The notes under the pieces: model-generated
The model's input: the letters and a program-made list of their open reading frames with translations, nothing else
The model's database searches: none
What the model was told of the DNA's origin: nothing
Position numbers and translations under genes: made by a program
Shown here: piece after piece, positions 2,468 to 16,407 of the stretch
Layout of the letters: the number at the start of each line of letters is the position of its first letter
Position numbering within the stretch: the stretch's first letter is position 1
Assembly: GCF_021172045.1 (NCBI RefSeq)
Contig: NZ_CP087164.1
Coordinates: forward strand, 4,836,001-4,900,000
Direction of reading: 5' to 3'
DNA from: Capillimicrobium parvum
GTDB lineage: Bacteria; Actinomycetota; Thermoleophilia; Solirubrobacterales; Solirubrobacteraceae
DNA: 64,000 nucleotides

Positions 2468-3385
2468 TTAGGCCCAGCCGGAGCCCGCCGGAGCCGGCTC
2501 CACGCCGCGCACCACGGGCAGATTGAACAGGCGCTCGTCCTCCTCGTCGGTCACCCACGCTTTGGCGATCTCCTCGCAGGTGGCGAACCAGACGCCGTCC
2601 TTGGAGGAGATGTGCTCGACGAGGCGCTCGAACCACATCATGTGGTGGGCCTGACCGATGACCTGCGGGTGCACCGCCACCGCGTAGCACGCGTTCTCGA
2701 CCCGCTCGTAGCCGTAGTCGAAGATGTCGCGCCAGCGCTTGAAGATCGTGTCGGTGTCCTGCTGGCCGGCCTGCGCGCCCGTGTAGGCGAGCGCGGGGAA
2801 GTCGTCCAGGTACCAGTTGACCGGGATCTCCAGCACGCGGCTGGCGGGCCCGGCGATGTTGGCCGACTCCCAGTTGACCTGCCAGCGCTGCGGGTGGTAC
2901 GGGACCAGATCCCGAGCCATGAGGCTCGAGTCGTAGATGAAGCCGAACTCCTCCACGAGGTCCAGCGTCGACTCGGAGTAGTCCCAGTACGGCGAGCGGT
3001 AGCCCACCGGCTTGATCCCGAGCTGGCGGTCGAACGTGTCGAACGCGAGCTCGATCAGGCGGCGCTCGGTGTCCTCCTGGATCTTCGTGGGGTTCTCGTG
3101 GTAGTAGCCGTGGTGGCCGAACTCGTGGCCATCGGCCTGAATCGCCTTGCAGATGTCGGGGAACGTGTCGATCGTGTGCCCCGGCGTGAAGAACGTCGTC
3201 CTGATGTCGTAGCGGCGAAACAGCTCAAGCAGCCGCGGCACGCCGACGGCTGCGCCGAACTCGCCGCGCGCCATGAACGACGGACTCGGCCAGTTGAAGG
3301 CGCCGAGCCACAGGCTCTGGGCGTCAAAGTCTGCGCCGAGGTTGACGGCGATCTTCTTTCCGGGTGGCATCTGGATGTGGCCCAT
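2468..3385 (-). CDS. CE4/PuuE-like polysaccharide-deacetylase-family hydrolase (module 1)
   Basis: A 305-residue NodB-fold metal hydrolase. Metal-site candidates are D19/D21 in ADFDAQ and the H-x3-H pair H92/H96 in GHHGYYHENP; a conserved RSPYWD motif follows. No signal peptide is seen, so a cytosolic role is likely. This fits the PuuE-allantoinase/HpPgdA-like branch better than a cell-wall deacetylase. ATG 3385 is chosen because AGGAGGG lies just upstream; the open frame extends further upstream without sense. It follows the nitrilase gene by 31 bp and has a paralogue at 16550-17458 with the same partner. A role in opening a cyclic amide or ureide is an inference. Confidence 0.82.
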   Translation of the reverse strand: MGHIQMPPGKKIAVNLGADFDAQSLWLGAFNWPSPSFMARGEFGAAVGVPRLLELFRRYDIRTTFFTPGHTIDTFPDICKAIQADGHEFGHHGYYHENPTKIQEDTERRLIELAFDTFDRQLGIKPVGYRSPYWDYSESTLDLVEEFGFIYDSSLMARDLVPYHPQRWQVNWESANIAGPASRVLEIPVNWYLDDFPALAYTGAQAGQQDTDTIFKRWRDIFDYGYERVENACYAVAVHPQVIGQAHHMMWFERLVEHISSKDGVWFATCEEIAKAWVTDEEDERLFNLPVVRGVEPAPAGSGWA

Positions 3386-3416: not shown

Positions 3417-4301
3417 TCAGCGGGGGACGGCGGTGGTGTGCGACGGCCAGCTGGCGTAGAGGTCCGCGCGACGCCGCCGGTCGCGGAACGTCGGGGCCGC
3501 ACCGTTGTCGCGGTTCTCGTAGAGCCGGTCGATGTCGACCGTGCCGTGGACGACCATCTCTTCGTTCGGGGTCGCCTGGGCGACGATGCCGTCCGGGGTC
3601 CACGGCATGTCGCACGGCGTGAGGATCGAGCTCTGCGCCCAGCCGTTGGGCAGCGGCGCGCCGGGCCGCCCGCCGGTGCAGCAGTGCACGAAGTAGACTT
3701 GGTTCTCGATCGCCCGGGCCTGCGCGCAGTGGCGCACGCGCCAGAAGCCGAACTCGGTGAACGTGAACGAGGGACAGAGGATGATCTCGGCGCCCTGCTC
3801 GGCCGCGGTGGCCGCGCACTCTGGGATCTCGGCCTCGTAGCAGATGTTGAACGCCACCTTGGCGAACGGCAACTCGATCGCCTCGACGGTCGTGCCCTCC
3901 TCGGTCGACCAGCCGGCCTCGGCCGGGAAGATGTGGGTCTTGACGTGCGTGTGCACCGTTCCCGACGGCTCGAAGAGGTGCCCCACGTTGACGTAGCGGT
4001 CACCGTCCTTGAGCAGGTGCGATCCGCCGACGATGAATTGGTCGCGCGTACGCGCCTGCTCCGTGAAGAAGTCCAGGTACTCCTGAGTGAACTCGTCGAT
4101 GCGAGTCAGCTCGGAGATCGGTGCGGACTTCCAGTCGCTGTAGGTGCTGAACAGCTCGACCGTTAAGAGCTCCGGGAAGAGCACCAGGTCGGCGCCCTTG
4201 GCCTGGTTGAGGAGGGTCTCGCAGTGCGCGCCGAACTCGTCGAAGCTGCTGACCGGACGGACGGCGAAGTTCGCCGCTGCGATCGAGATGTGCCGTGCCA
4301 T
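3417..4301 (-). CDS. Nitrilase-superfamily (carbon-nitrogen) hydrolase (module 1)
   Basis: A 294-residue C-N hydrolase with the full catalytic triad: E44 (LFPELL), K121 (VKTHIF) and C154 (FNICYEAEIPE). Enzymes of this fold cleave non-peptide C-N bonds in amides or N-carbamoyl compounds; the exact substrate is not evident. ATG 4301 follows CGGAGG and starts the conserved ARHISIAAANF. It lies between the AhpD-like gene (47-bp gap) and the CE4 gene (31-bp gap), implying one transcript. A diverged paralogue sits at 17458-18318, again directly upstream of a CE4 gene. Confidence 0.88.
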   Translation of the reverse strand: MARHISIAAANFAVRPVSSFDEFGAHCETLLNQAKGADLVLFPELLTVELFSTYSDWKSAPISELTRIDEFTQEYLDFFTEQARTRDQFIVGGSHLLKDGDRYVNVGHLFEPSGTVHTHVKTHIFPAEAGWSTEEGTTVEAIELPFAKVAFNICYEAEIPECAATAAEQGAEIILCPSFTFTEFGFWRVRHCAQARAIENQVYFVHCCTGGRPGAPLPNGWAQSSILTPCDMPWTPDGIVAQATPNEEMVVHGTVDIDRLYENRDNGAAPTFRDRRRRADLYASWPSHTTAVPR

Positions 4302-4347
4302 GGTGTGGGTTGCCTCCGGGTTTGGTGTGGGTGGGACAGGACGAGGA

Positions 4348-4947
4348 TCACGCGGTGGGCACGTCGCCATCGGAACGATCAACAACTCGCTCATCGGCTA
4401 TGAGCGGGCGGACCGCGCAGAATCCCTGCGCTTCGATTCGGAGAGCACGATGGAACTTACTCAGGAAGTTCTCGAATGCGACCGTGCACGTCAGTTCCAC
4501 GATCTGCTCCTCAGTGAACGTGTCATGAACGCGGTCGAAGAGCCCATCGTCTACTCCCGAGCCACTGATCGTCATCGCCTCCGCGTACGCCAGCGCCGTG
4601 CGCTCGCGATCGTCGAACAGGTCGCTCTCCGACCACCGTCCGACATCGAGGAGCTTGACCTCCGATACTCCGTTGCTTCTGCTCACGGCAGAATGCAGAT
4701 CCGTTCAGAAAGGGCATCCGTTCAACAGGGCGACTCGCACGCGCAGCAGCGCCTTGAGGTCCGTAGGGAGGGTGGTTGCTTCGGAGAAACGAGCGACGAA
4801 CTCCTTTACCGCCAGCAGCACCGGGACGTTGTGCGCATACATCTTTGTGTTGTTGAGCACGACGCCGTAAAGACCGACATCTCGGTCGTAGTACGGCTGC
4901 GCCTCAGCGGCCGCTTGCGCACGTTCGATAGGTCTCAATCGAGGCAT
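4348..4947 (-). CDS. AhpD/CMD-like redox protein with in-frame TGA at the CxxC motif (putative selenoprotein)
   Basis: Read through one TGA (4705-4707), this is a 199-residue AhpD-like carboxymuconolactone-decarboxylase-fold protein. The text before the stop ends ALLNGCPF, and the frame continues TDLHSAVSRSNGVSEVKLL with no shift. The TGA falls exactly on the second Cys of the CxxC-xxx-H active site, giving C78, U81, H85. The rest of the family pattern (DVGRW, DLFDDRERTALAYAEAMT) is intact. ATG 4947 follows GTGAGG. A SECIS-like hairpin lies just 3' of the TGA (4677-4693). AhpD-like selenoproteins are known in bacteria. The alternative is a nonsense mutation (TGC to TGA). No Sec machinery is in this window. 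The gene lies between the ABC permease and the nitrilase. Confidence 0.72.
4677..4693 (-). promoter_or_regulatory. Candidate bacterial SECIS hairpin
   Basis: On the coding strand, TTCTGC and GCAGAA form a perfect 6-bp stem closing the 5-nt loop CGTGA. The loop begins 17 nt after the TGA and carries G at its second position, followed by U. Bacterial SECIS elements characteristically have a short apical loop with G in the first two positions, at roughly 16-37 nt from the UGA. All three criteria are met. The stem sits inside the reading frame, as expected in bacteria. Confidence 0.6.
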
Positions 4948-5135
4948 GAGTACCTCACTCCCGTGGGCGCAACGCGTTGTAGGGGTCGGTCGGGGCGCCC
5001 GTCCGCGCCCGACCCCATTGATGTACGACTCGCGGCGTCCATCCCAGTCAGTCTCGTTTCAATCACGCGCCCTAGGTGTGCCGCTGGCGCAGAGACTCAA
5101 TGACCGGCGACTCTGCTTGGCGTCGAGGCACCCGG

Positions 5136-6215
5136 TCATGTTGGCGCCTCCGATGGCGCCACAGCCGACTCGCCGGGTCTCCCCGCCCTCGGCGGCGGCG
5201 CAATTGGCTCGCTGATCGCAGGGTTCTCCTTCCGGCGCCGCACGTACTCGTCCCAGGCGACCGCGATGATCAAGACCACGCCCTTGATGACCACCTGGTA
5301 GAACGGATTGATCTGAAGACTGTCGAAGCCGTTCTGCATGACGGCTAGGAGACCAAGCCCGACCGCAGTCCGCCACATTGCGCCGAAGCCGCCGCTGATC
5401 GCTGTCCCGCCCAGCACGATGGCGATCACGACGTCGAACTCGATGCCGGCCGAGGCGTCGGCCTGCCCAGTGCCCAATCGTGAGGCCATGAACGCGCCCG
5501 CCAACGCGGCGGACACGCCCGATACGGCGTAGGCGGTGATAAGGCGACGGTCCACCTTGATGCCCGACAGCCGCGCCGCGTCCCGGTTTCCGCCCAGGGC
5601 GTACATCGATCTGCCGTAAGTCGTACGGGACAGAACGAAGCCGCCAACGAGGAACGCCAGAATCATCACGACGCTGGGGATGACGAACGGGCCGATCTGG
5701 TTCAGCCCCAAGGCGGCGAAGCTGTCGCCCTCCACGATGAATGGCGTGCCATCGGTATAGACGAGGCCGATCCCGTGGGCGATTTGCCCCATGGCGAGCG
5801 TCGCGATGAAGGGATTCACCCGCAGTTTGGTGATTACGAGGCCGTTGGTGACGCCGAGGAACAAGCCGACTCCCAGCGCAGCGATGAAGGCGACTCCGAC
5901 TGGTACATGACCAGCGAATCCAGCGAAGCAGACCGTCGCGAGCGCGAATATGCCGCCGACGGAGAAGTCGAACCCACCGCTGATGATCACGAAGGTCCCG
6001 GCCACCGCCATGATCCCGACGGGCGCCCACTGCTCCAGCAGGTTCAGAAGACTCTGCCCCTCGACAAAACTCGGCTCGCGGATCGCCACAACGGCGATGA
6101 GGACGACGAGGACCAGAACGAGCCCATATTCCTGCAACACCCTCCGCGCGGCGCCCCTCACGCGGTTGCTCGAGCGTGCAGCCGGTCGTTCGGTTTCCTG
6201 TTGTGCTGTGGTCAC
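5136..6215 (-). CDS. Sugar-type ABC transporter permease (RbsC family)
   Basis: A 359-residue hydrophobic BPD_transp_2 permease with about eight to ten membrane helices, containing the family motifs SGGFDFSVGG and GGTAISGG. It starts at GTG 6215 behind AGGAG. It follows the ATPase gene by 58 bp and, with the binding protein at 7966-9186, completes a CUT2-type importer. Known members take up pentoses, autoinducers, nucleosides or other small polar solutes. The amidase-rich context suggests a cyclic amide or nucleoside-like ligand, which is an inference. The C-terminal tail is proline- and alanine-rich and probably cytosolic. Confidence 0.92.
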   Translation of the reverse strand: MTTAQQETERPAARSSNRVRGAARRVLQEYGLVLVLVVLIAVVAIREPSFVEGQSLLNLLEQWAPVGIMAVAGTFVIISGGFDFSVGGIFALATVCFAGFAGHVPVGVAFIAALGVGLFLGVTNGLVITKLRVNPFIATLAMGQIAHGIGLVYTDGTPFIVEGDSFAALGLNQIGPFVIPSVVMILAFLVGGFVLSRTTYGRSMYALGGNRDAARLSGIKVDRRLITAYAVSGVSAALAGAFMASRLGTGQADASAGIEFDVVIAIVLGGTAISGGFGAMWRTAVGLGLLAVMQNGFDSLQINPFYQVVIKGVVLIIAVAWDEYVRRRKENPAISEPIAPPPRAGRPGESAVAPSEAPT

Positions 6216-6273: not shown

Positions 6274-7926
6274 TCACTGCGCGGACTCCGACTTGGAATG
6301 GCGTTGACTTTCGAAGTCCGCCTCGAAGACGCCAGCCAAGACGCGATCGAGCGTCATCTCGTTACCGCTCAACTCGGCGACGCAGCGACCTTTCGAGATG
6401 AGGAGGACGCGATGCGACACAGCGATGACCTCTTCGAACTCCGACGAAACCCAGAGGATCGCGTGGCCGAGATCCGCAAGATCGTTCAGGACACGCATAA
6501 TGTCCTGCTTGGCTCCAATATCGATCCCGCGAGTCGGCTCGTCGATGAGCAGGACCCGTGGCGCACGATGCAGCCACTTCGCCACCATCACCTTCTGCTG
6601 GTTGCCGCCTGACAGCGTGCGCACTGGGCCACCTACCGCGCCGCGGAACTCGACTGACGCGAGCAGCCCGCTCGCCCGCGACCAACTGCGGCTGCGTCTC
6701 AACGTGCCCCCGCGAGATACCGCGCTCAGGTCGGAGAGAGTGACGTTGTCGTAGACCGGCATGTCGAGGACCAGTCCGCGGGTCTTCCGGTCCTCAGGGA
6801 GAAGCGCCACGCCGCGGTCCAACGCCGCCGAGACGCTCTTTGGCCACGCCACCGCCTGCGACTCGAGCTCCATGTGCCCTGTGGACCCAGGAAAGTCGCC
6901 CGCTATGGCGCGCAGGACCGATGTTCGCCCCGATCCGACGAGCCCGGCTAGGCCCACGATCTCGCCGGCGGCCACTTCTATCTCGTCGATGCGCACCTTG
7001 GCTCCGGCCCGCACACCGCGCACCCGCAGCAGCGGGGCGCGGAACTCGCGTGAGCGGGGTGGCCCGGTGCTGGTATGTCCGGTCCGCGCGTCTAGCTCCG
7101 GCGACTCCTTCGAGATTGGGCCGCCCCCAATGCCCTGGGACAGCGTTCCGGCCCGCTCGTCGCCGAGCATGGCGACCACAAGGCGCTCCTTCGTCCATGC
7201 CTCCTTGGGGGCCGTGCGCACCAGCGATCCGTCGCGGAATACCGTCACTGAGTCGGCCAGGCCCATGACCTCTTCGAGGTCATGTGAAACCAGCACGAAC
7301 GTCACCCCCTGCCGACGCATACCGGCGACGATCGCATAGAGCTTCTCGCGCTCGGGAACGCCGAGCGTCACCGTCGGCTCATCCATGATGACCAGGCGCG
7401 CCTCGCGCCGCAGCGCGCGAAGAATCTCGAGCATCGCCTGCTGCGCGACCGACAATCCGCTGACGAGTGCGTCTGCTGGAACGTCGATCCCTCCGCGTTC
7501 CGCGAGTTCGTTGTACTCGCGACGCATGCGGCGCCGGGATACCACCGAGCCGCGAGCAGGGAGATCCCCGAGGAAGACGTTTTCCATCGCGCTGAGCTGC
7601 GGAACCATGAGCAGTTCCTGATGAATCACCGCCACGCCGGCGTCCGCCGCCTTGGACGGATTCCCCTGCACGAGTGGCTGCCCGAAGATCTCGACGCGAC
7701 CGCCGGGATCGGCGACCGTCTTGCCGCCGAGAATGCCGACGAGCGTGGACTTCCCTGAGCCGTTCTCGCCGACCAGAGCCCGGAACTCGCCGGAACGCAC
7801 CGAGAGCGACACGCCCTTTAGCGCCCGCGTCCCCGGATACGTCTTGACGAGATCCTCGACAACGACGGCGGGTGGGAGGCCCGCGGCCGGGCCTCCCACC
7901 GTCGACTCAGACGTCACGACCGACAT
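6274..7926 (-). CDS. Sugar-type ABC transporter ATP-binding protein, two nucleotide-binding domains (RbsA family)
   Basis: A 550-residue fused ATPase typical of CUT2 importers. The first domain has Walker A GENGSGKST (residues 53-61) and Walker B LVIMDEP. Its signature is degenerate (LSVAQQ). The second domain has the usual degenerate P-loop (GLVGSGRTS), a full signature LSGGNQQK and VLLIDEPTRG. This pattern is normal for the family. About 30 residues between the domains are extra and rich in Ser/Gly/Thr (near ISKESPELDARTG). Start ATG 7926. It lies between the binding-protein gene and the permease gene on one strand. Confidence 0.93.
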   Translation of the reverse strand: MSVVTSESTVGGPAAGLPPAVVVEDLVKTYPGTRALKGVSLSVRSGEFRALVGENGSGKSTLVGILGGKTVADPGGRVEIFGQPLVQGNPSKAADAGVAVIHQELLMVPQLSAMENVFLGDLPARGSVVSRRRMRREYNELAERGGIDVPADALVSGLSVAQQAMLEILRALRREARLVIMDEPTVTLGVPEREKLYAIVAGMRRQGVTFVLVSHDLEEVMGLADSVTVFRDGSLVRTAPKEAWTKERLVVAMLGDERAGTLSQGIGGGPISKESPELDARTGHTSTGPPRSREFRAPLLRVRGVRAGAKVRIDEIEVAAGEIVGLAGLVGSGRTSVLRAIAGDFPGSTGHMELESQAVAWPKSVSAALDRGVALLPEDRKTRGLVLDMPVYDNVTLSDLSAVSRGGTLRRSRSWSRASGLLASVEFRGAVGGPVRTLSGGNQQKVMVAKWLHRAPRVLLIDEPTRGIDIGAKQDIMRVLNDLADLGHAILWVSSEFEEVIAVSHRVLLISKGRCVAELSGNEMTLDRVLAGVFEADFESQRHSKSESAQ

Positions 7927-7965: not shown

Positions 7966-9186
7966 CTAGAACTCCGGCTTGAACTGGTCGACGTTCGCCT
8001 CGGTGATCTGCACCGTGTTGCCGGGCAGGCCCTTGCCGGCGCCGAGATTGTTGAACGTTGGGACCTCCTGGCCGTCGAGGTGCCCGACCAGCAGCTCGAG
8101 GCCCTGACCGACCTCTTCCACAGGCTGCAGGTACTGAATGCCCTGAATCCATCCTTCCTTCAGCAGCGGGAACGTGCGCTCATCGCCGCCGAGATCGAAG
8201 ATGGTGATCTCACCGGGCTTCTTGCCCGCCGACTGCAGTGCCTTGATCGCACCGACCGTGTTCTGGTCATACGACGACAGCAGCATGTCGACGTCTGGGT
8301 GGGTCTGTAGCACCGTCTGCGCCTGCTTGAGCCCCGCCTCGATCGTCCAAGGAGCTGCGATGTTCTGGACGACCTTGACATTCGGATACTTCTTGGCGCC
8401 CTCCTCGGAAGCCCGCTTCAGCTGTTGATAGTGGCCGAACGTCGAAGGCCCGCTCAACACCGCAACCTTGCCGCCGCCCTTCTTCGCGAGCTCGCCAAAC
8501 GCCCAGTCGACGTACTGCTTATAGAACGGGTACGACTGCGAGCTCGACTCCGAGACCGTGCCCTCGGTGTAGCCATCATCCCCACAAAGCGGGAAGTTCG
8601 TCACGACCACCGGCAGCGTCTTGGCGATCCGCTTAACGGTGTTGCACTCCGCATTCGGATCGGCAGCGAACAGAACCATGCCGTCACACTTGTTCTGCTG
8701 CACCAGAGCCTGCATCTGATTGATCTGCTCCGCAGAATCCCAGTTTGCGATTTCCTTGTGGAGCTTGACGCCAAGCGCGTCCGCGGCCGTCTCCGCTCCA
8801 TATTCCATCGCTTGGACATACGTGTTGATCGGCGTGTTGCCAACGTAGCACACGTTGTATTCCTTCGAGGCCTTGCGATTAGGAACCTCACCCAACAGCG
8901 TCAGCGGCTGCTTGTCGCCCTTGGACCCGGTGACCTGATACGGCGTCTGATCAGCCGAGGCAGTCGTGCTCGAATCCGCCGCGGTCGTGCTCGAATCCGC
9001 CGCAGCTGTGCTCGACGCGGACGTGGCCGCCCCCGAGTCACCCGACGAACTCGTCGATGAACCGCTGTCGCCGCCACCGCATCCCGCGACGAGCGCCACC
9101 GTAGCGCCGAGCACGAACACCAGCGCCGCGCCGGAACGCACCATTTTCCAGGTGTCCCGCACAGACCCCCAGGTAAAACGCTCCAT
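7966..9186 (-). CDS. Periplasmic-binding-type lipoprotein of the ABC importer
   Basis: A 406-residue type-1 periplasmic-binding-fold protein. The N-terminal signal ends in lipobox LVAGC (Cys36), followed by a Ser/Thr/Ala-rich linker of about 45 residues, so it is a membrane-anchored ligand receptor. ATG 9186 is preferred over the GTG two codons upstream because it is well spaced from GGAGGAGGAG. The body carries the RbsB-like layout (VCYVGNTPINTY, DGMVLFAADPNAEC, LSSYDQNTVGAIKAL, FDLGGDERTF). It is the first gene of the importer set, 134 bp after the C45 gene. The ligand is unknown. Confidence 0.92.
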   Translation of the reverse strand: MERFTWGSVRDTWKMVRSGAALVFVLGATVALVAGCGGGDSGSSTSSSGDSGAATSASSTAAADSSTTAADSSTTASADQTPYQVTGSKGDKQPLTLLGEVPNRKASKEYNVCYVGNTPINTYVQAMEYGAETAADALGVKLHKEIANWDSAEQINQMQALVQQNKCDGMVLFAADPNAECNTVKRIAKTLPVVVTNFPLCGDDGYTEGTVSESSSQSYPFYKQYVDWAFGELAKKGGGKVAVLSGPSTFGHYQQLKRASEEGAKKYPNVKVVQNIAAPWTIEAGLKQAQTVLQTHPDVDMLLSSYDQNTVGAIKALQSAGKKPGEITIFDLGGDERTFPLLKEGWIQGIQYLQPVEEVGQGLELLVGHLDGQEVPTFNNLGAGKGLPGNTVQITEANVDQFKPEF

Positions 9187-9231
9187 CCTCACTCCTCCTC
9201 CTTTGTGGACACCTTCTCAACTGCCACTGCC

Positions 9232-9325: not shown

Positions 9326-10441
9326 CTACCGCGGCAGCATCTGTTGATCCTCGACAAAAGCCGGCACGACCGGCACATATGTGCCCTCGCACGGGGCGCC
9401 GAAGCAGAGCTGCGCCGTGGAAGATGAGATGTCGATGACGATCGACCCAAGCGTCGCAAGGCGCTCCGGTTGCGGAAGGCTCTCGTCAGCGTGCCGACAG
9501 ACCGAGCCGGGACGCCCTGCGTGGTCGCAGAGCAGTTCGGCACCGAGCACTTCCGCGTCGAGGCGACCGCGAACCGGGCCGATCAACTCGCGCATGCGCG
9601 TGACGCGGCCGGGCGAGTCCGGCAGGCTGTCCAGGGCTCGGTCCCGGCCGTCCAAGGGCCCGCAAAACGAGTTCGTGTGGATTAGGACGTCATCGACCGG
9701 TGCCATCTCGTGGACGGGGCCCGAGCCGGGCTGCGCCTCGATGTTCACCATGTCACCACCGGCCGTCGCAATGAGGTAGTTACCCGAAGACGCTCGCACC
9801 GGGCGCGTGATGGCCGCCTTGGCCTCTTCGAAGCTCTCGCCCAGCAGGATGTTGCGCAGAATCACATGGAACGGCACACCGAACGTGCCCACGTCGCGAT
9901 CCGTCAAGAGCAGGTTGGTCACCATCGCGACACCAGCGGAATTGAAGCCCATCTTCGCGGCCAGCCCCGCCTCGACGAACGTGACGAACGCAGGTCGCCC
10001 AGGGATGGCGACCTCGAGCAGGATGGTGCTGCGGCTCGCGGCCGGCAGCCAATCCCAGTTCTGCGCGACGATGACGCCGCCGTCCTTGGTGGGCCTTCCA
10101 CGGGCGGCGACCGAAGTGCACTCGGCTAGCACTGCGGCCGAGTGCCCGTACATAACTTCCGTGCGCGTGTTAATAGCGAGGATGTCCTCGAAGTCGAGCC
10201 CGGCACCCTGCGCAGTCCCTGCCATCTCCTCGACCAACTCGGGGTCGTAGCTCGCTATGGCCGGTTCGTACGCACGCGCCAACTCGCGCACCTCAGACCA
10301 GGCGAGCCCGGTGAAATGGGCGAACGTCCGCTGGTAGAGGGCGATGGAGTGGCGAATCTGGTCGGCGGCCTCGTGGCCCAGCTGGGTGCCCCGTTCCATC
10401 GGAGAACCCGAGATCCGGATATGCGGCGGCCGAGCGGTCAT
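9326..10441 (-). CDS. C45-family acyltransferase/peptidase-like Ntn hydrolase
   Basis: A 371-residue protein related to isopenicillin-N acyltransferase (peptidase C45). The expected nucleophile is Cys108 in AECTSVA, after which autoproteolysis would expose the cysteine as a new N-terminus. Conserved blocks follow: VIAQNWDW, GFNSAGVAMVTNLL and HTNSFCGPLD. Known relatives transfer or hydrolyse acyl-amide bonds. The start ATG at 10441 overlaps the hyuB stop (ATGA), so translation is coupled to HyuB. That coupling suggests it acts on the ring-opening product, for instance as an amide hydrolase. The substrate is not determinable. Confidence 0.85.
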   Translation of the reverse strand: MTARPPHIRISGSPMERGTQLGHEAADQIRHSIALYQRTFAHFTGLAWSEVRELARAYEPAIASYDPELVEEMAGTAQGAGLDFEDILAINTRTEVMYGHSAAVLAECTSVAARGRPTKDGGVIVAQNWDWLPAASRSTILLEVAIPGRPAFVTFVEAGLAAKMGFNSAGVAMVTNLLLTDRDVGTFGVPFHVILRNILLGESFEEAKAAITRPVRASSGNYLIATAGGDMVNIEAQPGSGPVHEMAPVDDVLIHTNSFCGPLDGRDRALDSLPDSPGRVTRMRELIGPVRGRLDAEVLGAELLCDHAGRPGSVCRHADESLPQPERLATLGSIVIDISSSTAQLCFGAPCEGTYVPVVPAFVEDQQMLPR

Positions 10442-12426
10442 GACGCCACCGCCTCGAGGTAGGCGGCCTCGTCAAACTGTGCGGGGTAGTCGAAGTCCGA
10501 GACGGTGATCCTGCCCTCCCGGATGAGCTGCTCCGCGTGAGGCCCGCGGTTGATCATCTTCAGCGGCGGGCGCGACGCCTTGCGGTCCGCGCGCAGCGTC
10601 TCGGTCTCCGCCTCGTCGACCTCATACCGGCGAGCGGGGTCGTCGACCATCTGCAGCACGACGCCGTAGTCGTCGCGGGCCCTACCTAGCGACACGAGCC
10701 CCCGTTGGACGTCCAAGCGCACCATCTCAGGCACACGGGCCAGCGGGTCGCCCCACCCGCCGCCGCCGGGAGTCAAGATCCGCACGACGTCGCCCGCCTT
10801 TACCGGAATCGCCTCGCGCTTGTAGAGAATGTGCTGCTCCTGTGGTGTGCCCGGGTTGACTAGCGCGCCGCCCGAGCGGCCGGCCATTCCGCCGTTGACA
10901 CCGAAACACGAGAAGATAGTGCGATAGGACACCGTCAAAAAGTGGCCATCGACGAGGATCTCGACGTCTTTCAGGTAGCCGAGGCCGCCCCGGAAGGCAC
11001 CCGGGCCGCCGGAGTCCTGGAACATGCCGACCCGCCGCACAAGGACGGGGAAGCGCTGCTCGATGAACTCGGTGGGCAGATTCTTCGACTCGGGCACCAG
11101 GTCGACGGTGTCGGTCCCATCGGCGAACGGCCTGGCCCCCGATCCGGCCCCGAAAATCTCTCGGTACAGGAAGTCCTTGCCGTCGAGGTCCTTGCCAAAG
11201 AACCCGTACAGCTGGATGCACTGGGCGTCGCCCACCATCTGCCCGTTGGTCGCCTTGGCCATCGCCGCCGTGTAAGCGCCAATCATCCGCAGCATGCAGT
11301 CCATCCGGTCCGCGCCGGCCGCCGGGTACTCCGCCGACAGCACGGTGCGCGGCGGCAGATAACACTTGAACACGTTCGTCATGCCCTCGTTGACGATCAT
11401 GCCCGGCACCTGGGCCTTGACGAAGCCGCCGAGCCACTTGGAGTAGTGGCGCCCGTCCATGACCCAGTTCACCGGCCCCGGGGTCTGCGGGTCGGTGCCA
11501 GCGAAGTCGACGATCAGTTTGTCAGGGTCCTTGCGGACCGTGAGCATGAGCTTGACCGGCTTCTCGAGGTCGATGCCGTCGGTCTCGAGGAAGTCCTCAC
11601 CGACGTACTCGCCATTGGGGATGTGCGGGAGCGCCTCCTCGCGAACGATCTCCTCGCAGCGCTCGATGATGCGGTAGAAGCCGGCCTCGACGACGTCGGT
11701 GCCGTACCGGCGGCACAACTCCTCAACGCGGCGCTGGATGATACGCGCCGCCCCGACGAAGGCGTCGATGTCGCCACGCAAGTCATCGGGGTACCGGCTA
11801 TTGCGGAGGATGATCTTCCACGCCTCTTCGTTGCGCTGGCCGCGGTCGTAGAACTTGATCGGCGGGCACTGGATGCCCTCCTCGAACACCGTCGTCGAGG
11901 TCAGGGGCCAACTGCCCGCCACGACGCCGCCGACGTCGTTGCAGTGACCGAAGATCTGCGCAAACCCGATGAGTCGCGCGTCGGAGAAGATCGGGACCAC
12001 CACGCAGAAGTCCGGCAAATGCCCGATCGTCGCGCTGGACTCGTGAATGTCGTTATAGAGGAAGACATCGCCCGGGTTGATCTGGTCCAGCGAGAAGTAG
12101 TTGCGGATCGGGTCAGCCGTGGCAGCCCAGGACACGCGGGTGACGCTGTTGCAATCGAGCGTGTTGATCGACGCACGGTAGTCGTGCTGCTCGCGGATGA
12201 TCGTTGAGACGGCCGTCCGCTCGACCGCGGCCTCGCCCTCGTCGATCGCCGCCTCGAGAGCCCACTCGAGGACGTCCAGCGTCACGCTGTCGATGTTGCC
12301 CTTGAGCGTTTCGATCCGCGGCCAGTCGGCATCGTCACGCTGGAAATCCGCCTTGCGGCGGGGGGCGTAGTCGCTCGTTCCGTAGCGCGACTCGTCGATC
12401 ATGAATTGGTCGGTGTCGATGGCCAT
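10438..12426 (-). CDS. hyuB: Hydantoinase B/oxoprolinase subunit (module 1)
   Basis: A 662-residue HyuB-family protein. Landmarks are NPGDVFLYNDIHESSATIGHLPD, FGHCNDVGG and the glycine-rich LTPGGGGWGDPLAR near the C-terminus. With HyuA it forms ATP-dependent hydantoinase, N-methylhydantoinase, 5-oxoprolinase or acetone-carboxylase-type complexes. The start is ATG 12426 with AGGAGG overlapping the hyuA stop; the frame upstream of it is antisense noise. It lies 4 bp after hyuA and overlaps the C45 start by 4 bp. It is the most divergent of the three HyuB copies here, with an N-terminal extension of about 50 residues before the conserved domain. Confidence 0.9.
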   Translation of the reverse strand: MAIDTDQFMIDESRYGTSDYAPRRKADFQRDDADWPRIETLKGNIDSVTLDVLEWALEAAIDEGEAAVERTAVSTIIREQHDYRASINTLDCNSVTRVSWAATADPIRNYFSLDQINPGDVFLYNDIHESSATIGHLPDFCVVVPIFSDARLIGFAQIFGHCNDVGGVVAGSWPLTSTTVFEEGIQCPPIKFYDRGQRNEEAWKIILRNSRYPDDLRGDIDAFVGAARIIQRRVEELCRRYGTDVVEAGFYRIIERCEEIVREEALPHIPNGEYVGEDFLETDGIDLEKPVKLMLTVRKDPDKLIVDFAGTDPQTPGPVNWVMDGRHYSKWLGGFVKAQVPGMIVNEGMTNVFKCYLPPRTVLSAEYPAAGADRMDCMLRMIGAYTAAMAKATNGQMVGDAQCIQLYGFFGKDLDGKDFLYREIFGAGSGARPFADGTDTVDLVPESKNLPTEFIEQRFPVLVRRVGMFQDSGGPGAFRGGLGYLKDVEILVDGHFLTVSYRTIFSCFGVNGGMAGRSGGALVNPGTPQEQHILYKREAIPVKAGDVVRILTPGGGGWGDPLARVPEMVRLDVQRGLVSLGRARDDYGVVLQMVDDPARRYEVDEAETETLRADRKASRPPLKMINRGPHAEQLIREGRITVSDFDYPAQFDEAAYLEAVAS

Positions 12427-12430
12427 TGCC

Positions 12431-14506
12431 TCAGGCCTCCTGCGAGTCGTGGGTGACGATGATCTGGCCCACCGAGTCGAGCGTGGCCGTCCACCCCGGC
12501 TCGAGGACAAAGGTTGCGTCGTACTGCTCGATGACCGCGGGGCCGGGAACGGCTTCCCCGATGGGCGCCAGCGAGCGCTCGTAGATCGGCAGGTCCACGG
12601 CGCCGGTGTCCCGGAACACGCCGCGACGAACTTCGCGACGGGCTTGATCCCAGGTCGCCGACTCACGGATTTCGCTGGCCGTCTTCAGGCGCGGGAACAA
12701 CCCGAAACCGGTCGCCCCGATGTTGACGATCTCCACCGGTTGCCGACCTTCGTACTCGTAGCCGTAGCGGTCGTCGTGCGCGCGATGGAACGCCTTCAGC
12801 GCTCCGCGGATGCCTGCCTCGTCAATACCGTGGCCGTTGACCTCCACCGGCACGCGCACTTCGTAGGCCTGGCCGGCGTAGCGCATGTCGGCGAACGCAC
12901 GCACCGACGTGTCATCGCCGGTGAACCCCTCTCGGTCGAGATCGCCGAGGACCTGCTCTTGCACCGAGGAGAACTCCCGGGTGAGGCGAGGCACGTCCAA
13001 CGCGTCCTCGCGCTGCACGTCGGTCACGACACGATCCGAGCGGACGTCCGTGGATAGCAGCCCCTCGGCGGACGTCACGCCCGGCGACGGCGGCACGATG
13101 ACGGTCTTGATCCCGAGCGACTCGGCGACGAGGCACGCGTTGAGGCCACCGGCGCCGCCGAACGCCATCAGCGCATAGTCGCGTGGGTCCCGCCCGCGCT
13201 TGACGGAGACCACGTTGATGCCCTGGGCGATGTTGCTGGTGGCCAGCTCGAGGATGCCCATGGCGGCCTCCTCGACGGTCATGTCCAGAGGCCTGGCGAT
13301 CTGCTCGCCAATGGCCTGGCGGGCCGCTTCGACGTCGAGGGTGATCTCGCCTCCGAGCAGATACGGCGACACGCGGCCGAGCACGATGTGCGCGTCCGTC
13401 AGGGCGGGCTCGGTGCCGCCGCCGCTGTAGCAGACAGGGCCTGGCACCGCACCTGCGCTCTGGGGCCCCACCCGCAGGCTGCGTCCGGCTGCCAGCCAGG
13501 CGATCGAACCGCCCCCCGCGCCGACTGTGTGCATGTCGATCATCGGCGTCTTGATGTCGTAGACGTCGATCCGGCCCTCCGTCAGCATGTGCGGCGTGCC
13601 CTGGTCGATCAGACAGATGTCGGTCGACGTGCCACCTATGTCGATCGTGATCAGGTCGGGGTGACCGGCGGCCTTGCCGTAATACGCGGCGGTGACCACG
13701 CCCGCGGCAGGGCCTGACAGCACGGCGGAGATAGGCTGCGGCGCCATCTCCTGCGCGCGAATGATCCCGCCGCTCGATTTCATCACGTAAAGACGTGCGT
13801 CGATGCCGTCACCCGCAAGCCGACCCTCGAGCCCCTCGATGTACCCGGTCACCAAGGGCATCAGGCCCGTATTCAGGCACGTGCTCAGTGTCCGCTCATA
13901 CTCACGGTACTCGCGGATCACGTCCGAGGAGATCGACACGAAGCATTCGGGGTGCTCCTCGAGGATCAGCGCGCGCGCGCGCTGCTCGTGCACCGGGCTG
14001 CGGTACGAGTGGATGAACGAGACGGCGATCGCGTCGATGCCCATCGTCCTGAACTCGCGGGCGATCTCGCGGATGCACTCTTCATCCAGCGGCGTGTGCT
14101 CGTCACCCGTGTAGGTGAGTCGGCCTCCCGCCTCGCGCACGAGCTCCAGCGGAACGACTCGCGCGGGCTTGAGCCACCAGGTGATGTCGCCGAAGTCGCC
14201 GGGTACGGTCTGGCGCCCGACCTCCAGCATCTCGCGGTAGCCTTCGGTGACGAGCAGCCCCATGCGCGCGTACTTGGATTCCAGGATGGCGTTCGTGGCG
14301 ACCGTGGTCCCGTGACTGATGAACGTCACCTCGCCCGCTTCGACGCCAATCTCCGCGAGGAGAGCCCGAATGCCGCTGCTGAACGCACGGGAGGGGTCAT
14401 CCGGCGTGGACGAGGTCTTGCGCACGTGCCGCTGCCCCGTTTCCTCGTCCACGGCCACCACATCGGTGAACGTGCCGCCGGTGTCCACTCCGATTCGCCA
14501 CGACAT
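12431..14506 (-). CDS. hyuA: Hydantoinase A/oxoprolinase subunit (module 1)
   Basis: A 691-residue HyuA-family ATPase subunit of the actin/hexokinase fold. Phosphate-binding motifs are VDTGGTFTDVVAVD near the start and IDIGGTSTDICLID in the middle. VGAGGGSIAWL and FGGAGGLNA are also present. ATG 14506 is chosen because GAGAGG precedes it and the family starts at this point; the frame extends 38 codons further without homology. It leads the module 1 gene string and is divergent to the GntR gene at 15586, across a gap of about 1.1 kb. ATP-dependent opening of a cyclic amide is the family function; the ring is unknown. Confidence 0.9.
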   Translation of the reverse strand: MSWRIGVDTGGTFTDVVAVDEETGQRHVRKTSSTPDDPSRAFSSGIRALLAEIGVEAGEVTFISHGTTVATNAILESKYARMGLLVTEGYREMLEVGRQTVPGDFGDITWWLKPARVVPLELVREAGGRLTYTGDEHTPLDEECIREIAREFRTMGIDAIAVSFIHSYRSPVHEQRARALILEEHPECFVSISSDVIREYREYERTLSTCLNTGLMPLVTGYIEGLEGRLAGDGIDARLYVMKSSGGIIRAQEMAPQPISAVLSGPAAGVVTAAYYGKAAGHPDLITIDIGGTSTDICLIDQGTPHMLTEGRIDVYDIKTPMIDMHTVGAGGGSIAWLAAGRSLRVGPQSAGAVPGPVCYSGGGTEPALTDAHIVLGRVSPYLLGGEITLDVEAARQAIGEQIARPLDMTVEEAAMGILELATSNIAQGINVVSVKRGRDPRDYALMAFGGAGGLNACLVAESLGIKTVIVPPSPGVTSAEGLLSTDVRSDRVVTDVQREDALDVPRLTREFSSVQEQVLGDLDREGFTGDDTSVRAFADMRYAGQAYEVRVPVEVNGHGIDEAGIRGALKAFHRAHDDRYGYEYEGRQPVEIVNIGATGFGLFPRLKTASEIRESATWDQARREVRRGVFRDTGAVDLPIYERSLAPIGEAVPGPAVIEQYDATFVLEPGWTATLDSVGQIIVTHDSQEA

Positions 14507-15585
14507 ATAACTGACCTCTCCATGGTTCGGCCGCGGCGGCCCCGGCGAAGGGGCGCCCGCGGATGCTGAAGTTTTCCCCCGCAAACCCCCAACCGAGCCG
14601 CGGTCGTGAAGTTGTACCACGTCGTGCTCAGAAGAGTCGAACTTTTGCTTTTCTAAGCGGATGGCGCCATCATCGGCGGCATGTCGCCTACAGAGACGCA
14701 GCGCCGTGACCTTCCGCTCGACGGCATTCGAGACATAGCGGTCGACTCTGCGCTGGCCGCCCCATCTGCCGACCGCACCTCGTGCATTTCGGCGCCACGG
14801 TCGCCCAGAAGGGACGGCCCGGCGTCGGCGACTTCGCCCGCTAGCACGACGATGGAGTTCCCATCACGCCGCCGTGTACTCGCGTGCTTGAACCGCTGCG
14901 GGGACAGCTTGTTTGGGGACCTCGAGAGCCCACCGACCGCGGGCTTATCTGGCCACTTCATCGCCTGCACCGATGTCTCCGCCGGCCTACGGGGCCGGTC
15001 GCCCCGCCACGACCCGACGTTAAGGTACGACCTATGCATGCTGCGGGCTTTGGTCACGGTCTCGACTCTCTGTCCGCCGCCCTGCTGCGACGCGCCTCGA
15101 CCAAACTCAGCATGCCTAGAGCTCGCGACTGAGCGCAGCGGTCGTACGCTTACACGACGAGGGCGCCCGTATTGCCGTCAAAGTGGCCAGTCAGCGTGCC
15201 CGATGCCGCGCCCCGGTTCTGCCAAAGCCGAGCGACACCTCCGATGCACTCGGGCGGCTGGGGCGGCAGCGATGGCGGACCGGCTGATCCATTGCCGACC
15301 AGAATGCGCCGCCTACGGAGTCCACGCTTGTAGCCCGTTCCGCGCCCGCTTCGCCGGCGGCCCAGGTCCTCGCTCGCGGGACGTACCAGCGAGAGTGCAG
15401 CACGCCGGCGGTCGACGGGCAGCTCCCCCGAACACGTCCACCGGGGCCCAAGCAGGGCACCATCCCGAGTTGCCCGTTGCATGGGCGCTACGGCCGCCGC
15501 GCGTCCGCCGGCCGACCAATTCCGCAGGCTCAAACCCGAATGTGCTCAACCAGTTTGACCGTCCGGCACTGGCGGATACGGTTAT
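14507..15585. other. Long divergent intergenic region
   Basis: About 1.08 kb between hyuA (minus) and the GntR gene (plus). Frames present on both strands are low in family-like patterns, rich in Arg/Ser/Pro and read as noise; I recognise no gene or remnant. Promoters for module 1 and for the regulator must lie here. TTGACC at 15555-15560 could be a -35 element for the regulator, within TTGACCGTC. Confidence 0.5.
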
Positions 15586-16407
15586 ATGAGCGCGACCCCT
15601 ACAGTCACGTCTGGAATGGGCAGCACTTCCAACGAAGCGCCGGCGCCTATTCTCCACGATGCTGTGGCCGACAACGGTCCGATCGTGATGAGTCGCGTTC
15701 GACGCGCGCACGAACAGGTGTATGACCAATTGCGCTCCCAGATCTTGTCCGGGGAGCTATCGAGCGGCCACCGGCTCCCGCCAGAGGTCGCCCTAGCCTC
15801 GGGGTTCGGCGTGAGCCGCGGAACGATCCGTGAGGCACTCCGCCTGCTCGTGGCTGAAGGTCTGATTCGAACGCTGAAGGGTGCCACCGGCGGCAACTTC
15901 GTTACGTTGCCGACCGTGGATCACATCTCGGAGTTCATGCAGCGAAATATCGACTTGCTCAGCCGCACCGAGCTTGTGACGCTGCCCGAGTTCCTAGATG
16001 CACGAGAACTCATCGAGGTGTACGCCGTCCGCCACGTGGCTGAGCGCCACACCGAAGCTGGCCTCGACGCGCTTCGGGCGACGCTCGCGGTTGAGAGTGT
16101 CTCTACCGCGCATGAAAAGTTTCTGCAAAATAAGGAATTCCACCAGATCCTCGTGGACGCCTGCGGCAACACTTTACTTCAGATCGCGGCACAGCCGATC
16201 TTCTCGATCCTGCACACGAACCTCGGCCGATCCAAACTGACCGACGAGTTTCCACGCCGCGTTTGCTCGGAACACCGCGCCATGCTGGATGCAATCTCTG
16301 CCGGAGACGCTGACCGTGCTGAGGCACTCATGCGCCAGCATCTCGCCGATCTTGCCTTGGTCTATCGCCAGATATGGCACTCCGGTGTGGACCTTTCAAA
16401 CCGGTGA
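15586..16407 (+). CDS. GntR/FadR-family transcriptional regulator (module 1)
   Basis: A 273-residue FadR-type repressor. The N-terminal winged helix spans about residues 40-105 (VYDQLRSQILSGEL, SRGTIREALRLLVAEGLI), followed by an all-helical FCD ligand domain. Metal or ligand histidines are visible in EFHQILV and SEHRAML. It is divergent to module 1 and convergent with module 2, so it is the natural regulator of module 1; that link is inferred. The start is uncertain. ATG 15586 has only a weak ribosome site (GGCGGA), and a possible promoter overlaps it. ATG 15688 (MSRVRRAHEQ) would still keep the whole DNA-binding domain. Confidence 0.88.
   Translation: MSATPTVTSGMGSTSNEAPAPILHDAVADNGPIVMSRVRRAHEQVYDQLRSQILSGELSSGHRLPPEVALASGFGVSRGTIREALRLLVAEGLIRTLKGATGGNFVTLPTVDHISEFMQRNIDLLSRTELVTLPEFLDARELIEVYAVRHVAERHTEAGLDALRATLAVESVSTAHEKFLQNKEFHQILVDACGNTLLQIAAQPIFSILHTNLGRSKLTDEFPRRVCSEHRAMLDAISAGDADRAEALMRQHLADLALVYRQIWHSGVDLSNR

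Follow-up and report, generated by a model that had tools for sequence, protein, structure and literature searches.

The gene at the centre of this analysis occupies positions 4348-4947 on the minus strand of the window, by which we mean the whole 64,000-nucleotide stretch of Capillimicrobium parvum DNA that was analysed. It begins with an ATG at 4947, preceded by a purine-rich, putative ribosome-binding stretch (GGGAGTGAGG, 4953-4962, minus strand), and its frame runs for 199 codons from 4947 to 4351. The terminating stop, a TGA at 4350-4348, is the second TGA in this frame: codon 81 (4705-4707), the second position of a CxxU motif, is also TGA, as it is in relatives. Reading this codon as selenocysteine (Sec, U81) yields a protein of 199 residues with the active site N-G-C-P-F-U-T-D-L-H. 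The preliminary description of the locus, which named no strand, had placed the TGA exactly at the second active-site cysteine of an AhpD domain, within an otherwise intact frame of 199 codons, and translation with Sec (GCPFUTDLH) bore out both statements. The Pfam profile PF02627 matched across the TGA (residues 54-124, E 2.4e-13, 50.3 bits against a gathering score of 23), and this score together with an all-helical fold (AF2, Foldseek) places the protein in the AhpD/CMD superfamily. GC content by codon position was 0.67/0.42/0.70 before the TGA and 0.68/0.43/0.72 after it, and the stop-free run of 117 codons that follows has a chance probability of about 0.02. Third-position GC was thus 0.70-0.72, compared with 0.80-0.96 in the neighbouring genes. 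A mechanical list of open reading frames divides the gene into two pieces (4705-4947 and 4348-4686), and standard annotation would therefore probably miss it.

The surrounding genes lie on the same strand. On the left are a carbon-nitrogen hydrolase of the nitrilase/amidase superfamily (3417-4304, ATG at 4302; PF00795), a polysaccharide-deacetylase-fold protein resembling the PuuE allantoinase (2468-3385, with the start near 3385 estimated; PF01522) and a NAD-dependent epimerase-like protein (1206-2153; PF13460/PF01370). On the right are an ABC permease of the sugar (RbsC/AraH) type (5136-6215; PF02653) and an ABC ATPase of the RbsA/AraG type (6274-7926; PF00005 twice), both with their nearest NCBIfam models below cut-off, followed by a periplasmic substrate-binding protein (7966-9192; PF13407), a C45-family autoproteolytic acyltransferase/amide hydrolase (9326-10441; PF03417; NF040521 at 252 bits, cut-off 85), a HyuB-like hydantoinase B/oxoprolinase (10438-12666, true start probably inside the ORF; PF02538) and a HyuA-like hydantoinase A/oxoprolinase (12431-14620; PF01968, PF05378). 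A GntR/FCD regulator is encoded divergently on the plus strand (15586-16407; PF00392, PF07729). The Sec gene and the permease gene are 188 nt apart, a scan found no promoter or terminator pattern, and the sequence suggests that the Sec gene is a member of the operon. Rfam and ARAGORN gave no matches in the window. We name no substrate for the operon because HyuA, the deacetylase and the nitrilase all fall under curated cut-offs. HyuA scored 533 bits with the CapA (caprolactamase alpha) model, whose cut-off is 1000, and matched an N-methylhydantoinase (PDB 7hk5) at E 9e-146; the deacetylase scored 91.9 bits with TIGR03212 (cut-off 424.6) and matched PDB 3qbu at E 6e-52.

To place the protein among its relatives, we searched several genome sets. 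Matches at E ≤ 1e-10 were present in 123 of 399 genomes of the same class and, at E ≤ 1e-20, in 99 of 396 genomes of the phylum; the seven best phylum matches after the source genome (G000) and G003, from another family of the class, were TGA forms, all from family f23. Public genome contigs provided 10 loci, with TGA at the site in five, a cysteine codon in three and the site uncovered in two. The closest relatives that share the TGA codon were G263 and G003, both of the same class, and L053-L057. These include two Rokubacteria MAGs (L053, L054), a Nitrospinota MAG (L055) and an Acidimicrobiales MAG (L057) that groups with same-phylum genomes in the tree. Of 95 genomes in the class to which the Rokubacterial genome G399 belongs, 62 matched the alignment at E ≤ 1e-18, with up to six matches each; these fall into several subfamilies, and most among the matches listed (L080-L129) hold one in-frame TGA. 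A plasmid search returned 489 records, all below 60% identity and at 31-37% among the ten matches listed.

We aligned 129 loci, made up of the best matches and 20 picked by hand for variety, some of these for showing no stop, and found TGA at the site in 72, TGC or TGT in 55 and another codon in two; six of the 20 hand-picked loci lacked TGA. The alternation of TGA with cysteine codons that the preliminary description proposed to look for is thus present in the wider family, but no cysteine form was found near the window gene. In a tree of 125 of the loci, from which rows that were identical or shorter than 110 residues were left out and whose bootstrap had not settled, the window gene sits on a long branch (0.79) within 49 all-Sec rows (89/88), nested in a weakly supported clade of 54 rows (84/43), all TGA. 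Across the full tree, the Sec/Cys label must switch nine times, and well-supported branches force at least six of these switches. In five of the 72 TGA loci (L116, L117, L118, L123 and L176) the first cysteine of CxxU is replaced by serine (GSAYU, GSPYU) while the TGA stays, which suggests that Sec is the essential residue. The CxxC-xxx-H proton relay is the motif of the classical AhpD peroxidase, and the site in the window had been presented as its CxxU-xxx-H equivalent. H85 is indeed present here, but the comparison was overstated: four residues after U, the 72 TGA loci have Asn in 49, Gly in 10, Arg in eight and His in five.

Downstream of the TGA, the minus strand can form a hairpin at 4677-4693, with arms TTCTGC (4693-4688) and GCAGAA (4682-4677) and the loop CGTGA (4687-4683). 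This is the 6-bp stem that had been proposed as a SECIS element, and the 17 nt said to separate the TGA from its loop are as described. According to PMC1088965, the small apical loop of bacterial SECIS elements contains a G, as does the loop of the window hairpin. The stricter rule of a G followed by a U held for the G; the U is not universal, as loops of the CGGG and AGGG type attest. Taken alone, the hairpin hardly exceeds chance: for the 45 nt after the TGA, z was -0.44 and 60 of 200 shuffles folded as well. Since the single-sequence fold lends the hairpin no support, the argument rests on comparison with relatives.

For this comparison we counted G-U as a pair and scored perfect stems about fixed centres downstream of the UGA, at two expected registers. 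In a smaller set, in which 55 TGA loci collapsed to 46 distinct downstream stretches, a stem of at least 5 bp was present in 41 of the 46 Sec sequences, compared with two of 40 cysteine homologues; mononucleotide shuffles reached this length at the expected registers in 279 of 2300 cases. In a larger set the counts were 56 of 64 distinct Sec sequences and four of 54 cysteine homologues, after 72 TGA loci and 55 cysteine loci, some of them duplicates of the same place (L053 = L080), had been reduced to distinct stretches. Allowing any register from 36 to 46 weakened the contrast for stems of at least 5 bp (63 of 64 versus 27 of 54) and left it strong for stems of at least 6 bp (61 of 64 versus 10 of 54). 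Eight of the 64 Sec sequences had no 5-bp stem at the two expected registers. In six of these (L106, L120, L121, L125, L177 and L187) a stem of at least 6 bp lies slightly further downstream; L174 forms 5 bp around a large loop, and L069 has no stem with a small loop.

The position of the stem is constant while its sequence varies, with GCATCC/GGATGC, GCTGCC/GGCAGC, CACGCC/GGCGTG, CGCGCC/GGCGCG and TCTCTC/GGGAGA among the forms found elsewhere. Most of this variety belongs to the 26 sequences that share the window gene's register, in which as many as four pair types occur at one stem position; the 30 sequences of the other register contribute little. Four loci of the same-phylum family f23 (L166, L167, L169 and L170) carry CGCTGC-CGTGA-GCAGCG, that is, the loop of the window hairpin and two compensated pairs. 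Conservation in homologues, the check suggested at the outset, therefore came out in favour of the hairpin: its position is kept, its stem shows compensatory changes and it goes with TGA, not with cysteine forms. The occurrence of the stem in 56 of 64 Sec and four of 54 cysteine sequences, together with the compensatory changes, argues that the window hairpin is a conserved SECIS element.

We searched the source genome, a single contig of 5.95 Mb, for the Sec machinery, and found all four components named in the preliminary description over curated cut-offs. A tRNA-Sec (selC) scored 65.7 bits (gathering score 47) with a model that is unspecific by itself: it matched this genome 15 times, twice above the gathering score, and gave matches in all 14 control genomes, above that score in five. 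ARAGORN also calls a tRNA-SeC. selA, selB and selD scored 481, 301 and 384 bits (cut-offs 268, 242 and 125), and in the control genomes their models exceeded the cut-off in one, two and two of 14, respectively. The four genes are clustered within about 12 kb (G000:C1:5454016-5466238). A second, short selA-like stretch lies far from selA (L018, G000:C1:721643-721873, minus strand; 75.5 bits, 88-codon frame) and is perhaps a remnant. Past the right edge of the window, at a distance of about 8 kb, a formate dehydrogenase gene (L161, G000:C1:4907196-4908554, minus strand) has a Sec TGA in the context ENQARI-U-HSSTVPGLG, and a hairpin, folded without a shuffle control, is predicted after this UGA as well. 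Given this classical UGA-containing gene, Sec decoding very likely serves other purposes in the genome as well.

The machinery was also sought in ten genomes with TGA at the site: G263, G003, the genomes of L053-L057, and G361, G289 and G329, in which the TGA lies in more distant AhpD-like genes. A tRNA-Sec of at least 57 bits, a threshold set within this analysis, was present in eight of the ten, and selA passed its cut-off in seven. Only G263, which is 81% complete, lacked both. Among genomes of the same genus as the source, selA and a tRNA-Sec match of 56.9 bits were found in G318, where no AhpD match reached E ≤ 1e-10; G053 and G326 gave no selA match.

The shared TGA codon, the covarying hairpin, the domain that runs across the TGA and the Sec machinery led us to reject three readings in which no Sec is made. 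A nonsense mutation or a read error, which would make the gene a pseudogene or its true codon TGC, could account for the long branch and the third-position GC below that of the neighbours, features that fit a recent gain and also relaxed constraint. Such an origin is very improbable, because the same codon is TGA in many species of several phyla, codon-position GC is nearly unchanged past the TGA and the 199 codons contain no other disruption; a covarying hairpin and a complete decoding system in the genome point the same way. We give even less credence to the TGA being a true stop, with an 80-residue N-terminal product and a remainder that is untranslated or forms a separate short protein from the GTG at 4686. 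The mechanical ORF list splits the gene in just this manner, but the CMD domain spans both halves, relatives conserve both at the protein level, and the selenium-decoding system and a SECIS element are present. From the sequence, it is highly probable that the gene encodes a genuine selenoprotein of the AhpD/CMD family in which UGA is recoded as Sec, and the recoding is about as certain as this kind of evidence can make it. In the proposed mechanism, the hairpin, which lies 12-28 nt downstream of the UGA, would direct SelB and Sec-tRNA to recode codon 81.

The product would be an all-helical protein of the AhpD/CMD fold. An AF2 model built from 20 sequences had a pLDDT of 88 and nine helices; the alignment that was folded (A3) omitted L083, which stood out of frame in A2 (17% identity). 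The nearest solved folds found with Foldseek were AhpD-like, the debrominase Bmp8 among them. The fold and the CxxU motif together suggest that Sec81, as the attacking residue, and Cys78 may work as a selenol/thiol pair with a selenenylsulfide state in the cycle, which would make the protein a small peroxidase or a disulfide/reductive enzyme. Less certainly, the selenoprotein may serve the surrounding pathway, either by protecting its enzymes or by catalysing a single reductive step on the imported compound. That pathway would comprise sugar-type ABC uptake and then amide-, lactam- or hydantoin-like hydrolysis by the nitrilase, PuuE-like, C45 and HyuAB enzymes.

The operon setting bears on this role. 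The genes around the Sec gene are those of the amide-catabolic operon first described, but only one other examined genome keeps the ABC, nitrilase and deacetylase genes together with a Sec AhpD. In that genome, G003, the order is binding protein (32% identical), ATPase (43%), permease (47%), nitrilase (71%) and deacetylase (79%), then a histidine kinase, a response regulator, the Sec AhpD (39-40%) and the contig end; HyuA, HyuB and the C45 enzyme had no match in this stretch. G363 has the binding protein, ATPase, permease, epimerase (55%) and nitrilase (75%), with the epimerase between permease and nitrilase; the contig ends after the nitrilase, so the presence of a Sec gene there cannot be judged. 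The nitrilase was found at E ≤ 1e-60 in five of 399 class genomes, the source included, and in the family of G003 it occurred in G003 only (1 of 103 genomes). Two further genomes, G198 and G111, have a nitrilase (46-47%) with an adjoining deacetylase, and the 18 kb examined there contained no match to a Sec AhpD. Around 22 homologous loci, several of them short and two (L053 and L144) covering the same place, the window's neighbours were absent from 21, save unspecific ABC ATPase matches in three; the exception was G003. In the class of G399, gene families beside the homologues recur in 10, 8, 6 and 6 of 19 loci and were named by eye as methyltransferase, PLP enzyme, NUDIX and SDR; no family recurring in at least three loci there is common with the window neighbourhood except the Sec gene itself. 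The link between the Sec AhpD and the gene set thus comes from two genomes, G000 and G003.

With these data, the chance that the selenoprotein is real and its role unrelated to the amide genes, for example generic peroxide defence after a chance insertion, is only a little short of even. The different gene families beside homologues in the class of G399, the low third-position GC suggestive of recent acquisition, the rarity of the nitrilase and the lack of a nearby Sec AhpD in G198 and G111 all favour such independence. Against it, G000 and G003 belong to different families and both keep the Sec AhpD with an orthologous ABC/nitrilase/deacetylase set, even though their AhpD proteins are only 39-40% identical. 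A more specific role, in which the selenoenzyme performs the committed reductive step on the imported compound of an amide/lactam/hydantoin operon and makes the pathway Sec-dependent, is unlikely on present evidence. An analogy would be Bmp8, an AhpD-like debrominase with reductive chemistry at its CxxC site. By sequence (E 1.1e-18) and by fold (TM about 0.75), Bmp8 (6ohi, 6ohj) ranks with the closest solved relatives, but it is only 22% identical, and structural-genomics AhpD proteins match as well or better on both counts; we regard a Bmp8-like reduction of the imported substrate as distinctly unlikely. If the selenoprotein does act with its neighbours, the locus would link one AhpD-type selenoprotein to a defined set of genes for transport and hydrolysis, and a substrate would offer a way to test what this common kind of selenoprotein does.

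AhpD-like selenoproteins of bacteria, whose existence the preliminary description had noted, have been published in CxxU form since 2005. AhpD-like and CMD-domain selenoproteins with CxxU were described in 2005 (27 and 4 sequences, PMC1088965) and again in 2008 (299 and 70 sequences, PMC2398784), and a 2006 survey of bacterial genomes lists as selenoproteins two AhpD-like COG2128 proteins and two distant AhpD homologues (PMC1794560). Several AhpD-type selenoproteins appear in reviews (PMC9312934, PMC13188914), the latter citing a groundwater study (Deng et al. 2026) on a Methylomirabilota genome with 63 predicted selenoprotein genes. Compared by description, the Sargasso Sea/GOS proteins AhpD-like 1 (COG2128) and AhpD-like 2/CMD (PF02627) share with the window protein the CMD/AhpD domain, Sec in the second position of CxxU and a bacterial SECIS element after the UGA (PMC1088965, PMC2398784); they are metagenome sequences, and the accessible text on them names no such operon. 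The claim that this operon setting is undescribed likewise stands within the accessible text of the open-access literature, where we found none like it. The nearest selenium-hydantoin link there was a gene table of selenium-dependent molybdenum hydroxylases that includes phenyl-hydantoinase (PMC2276186); these enzymes use a selenium cofactor and are not selenocysteine proteins. The window protein is very likely a diverged lineage of the known CxxU AhpD/CMD selenoprotein kind, set in an unusual, partly conserved operon, and as such it would add a lineage with a conserved SECIS element to the AhpD-type selenoproteins of marine and groundwater data.

Comparison with curated family models allowed a finer placement. 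The best model for the window protein was NF053654, described as 'YciW-related (seleno)protein' (GroundWater_YciW), which aligned residues 1-175 to model positions 1-175 and matched all nine proteins of set A1. At 126.5 bits the window protein is below the cut-off of 310, which makes it a sister lineage and not a member by that model; the other eight A1 proteins scored 109-183 bits, including L057 (182.8), a fragment, and L087 and L105, from the class of G399, scored 144-145. Proper members are L111 and L112 (331 and 333.5 bits), Sec forms within the 49-row clade that holds the window gene, and the f23 member L166 falls narrowly short (307 against 310). The AhpD core domain model TIGR00778 (29.9 bits, cut-off 27.8) and the peroxidase-related model TIGR01926 (32.1 bits, cut-off 81.8) share the domain and the active-site position, and both families are mainly CxxC. 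AhpD of Mycobacterium tuberculosis, which has a CxxC site, belongs to the same superfamily and gave only a weak structural match (Foldseek E at least 0.15, TM about 0.5). Two other Sec groups appeared among the aligned loci. One, a subfamily to which L074, L077 and L128 belong, is set apart by the site DCDYU-GxQRS and has its own hairpin. In f23, a second all-Sec AhpD clade (L174, L178, L181, L182, L184, L185 and L190) stands apart from the window clade, with the sites GCPFU-MDIGSAVG or GCPFU-LDIGSAVG.
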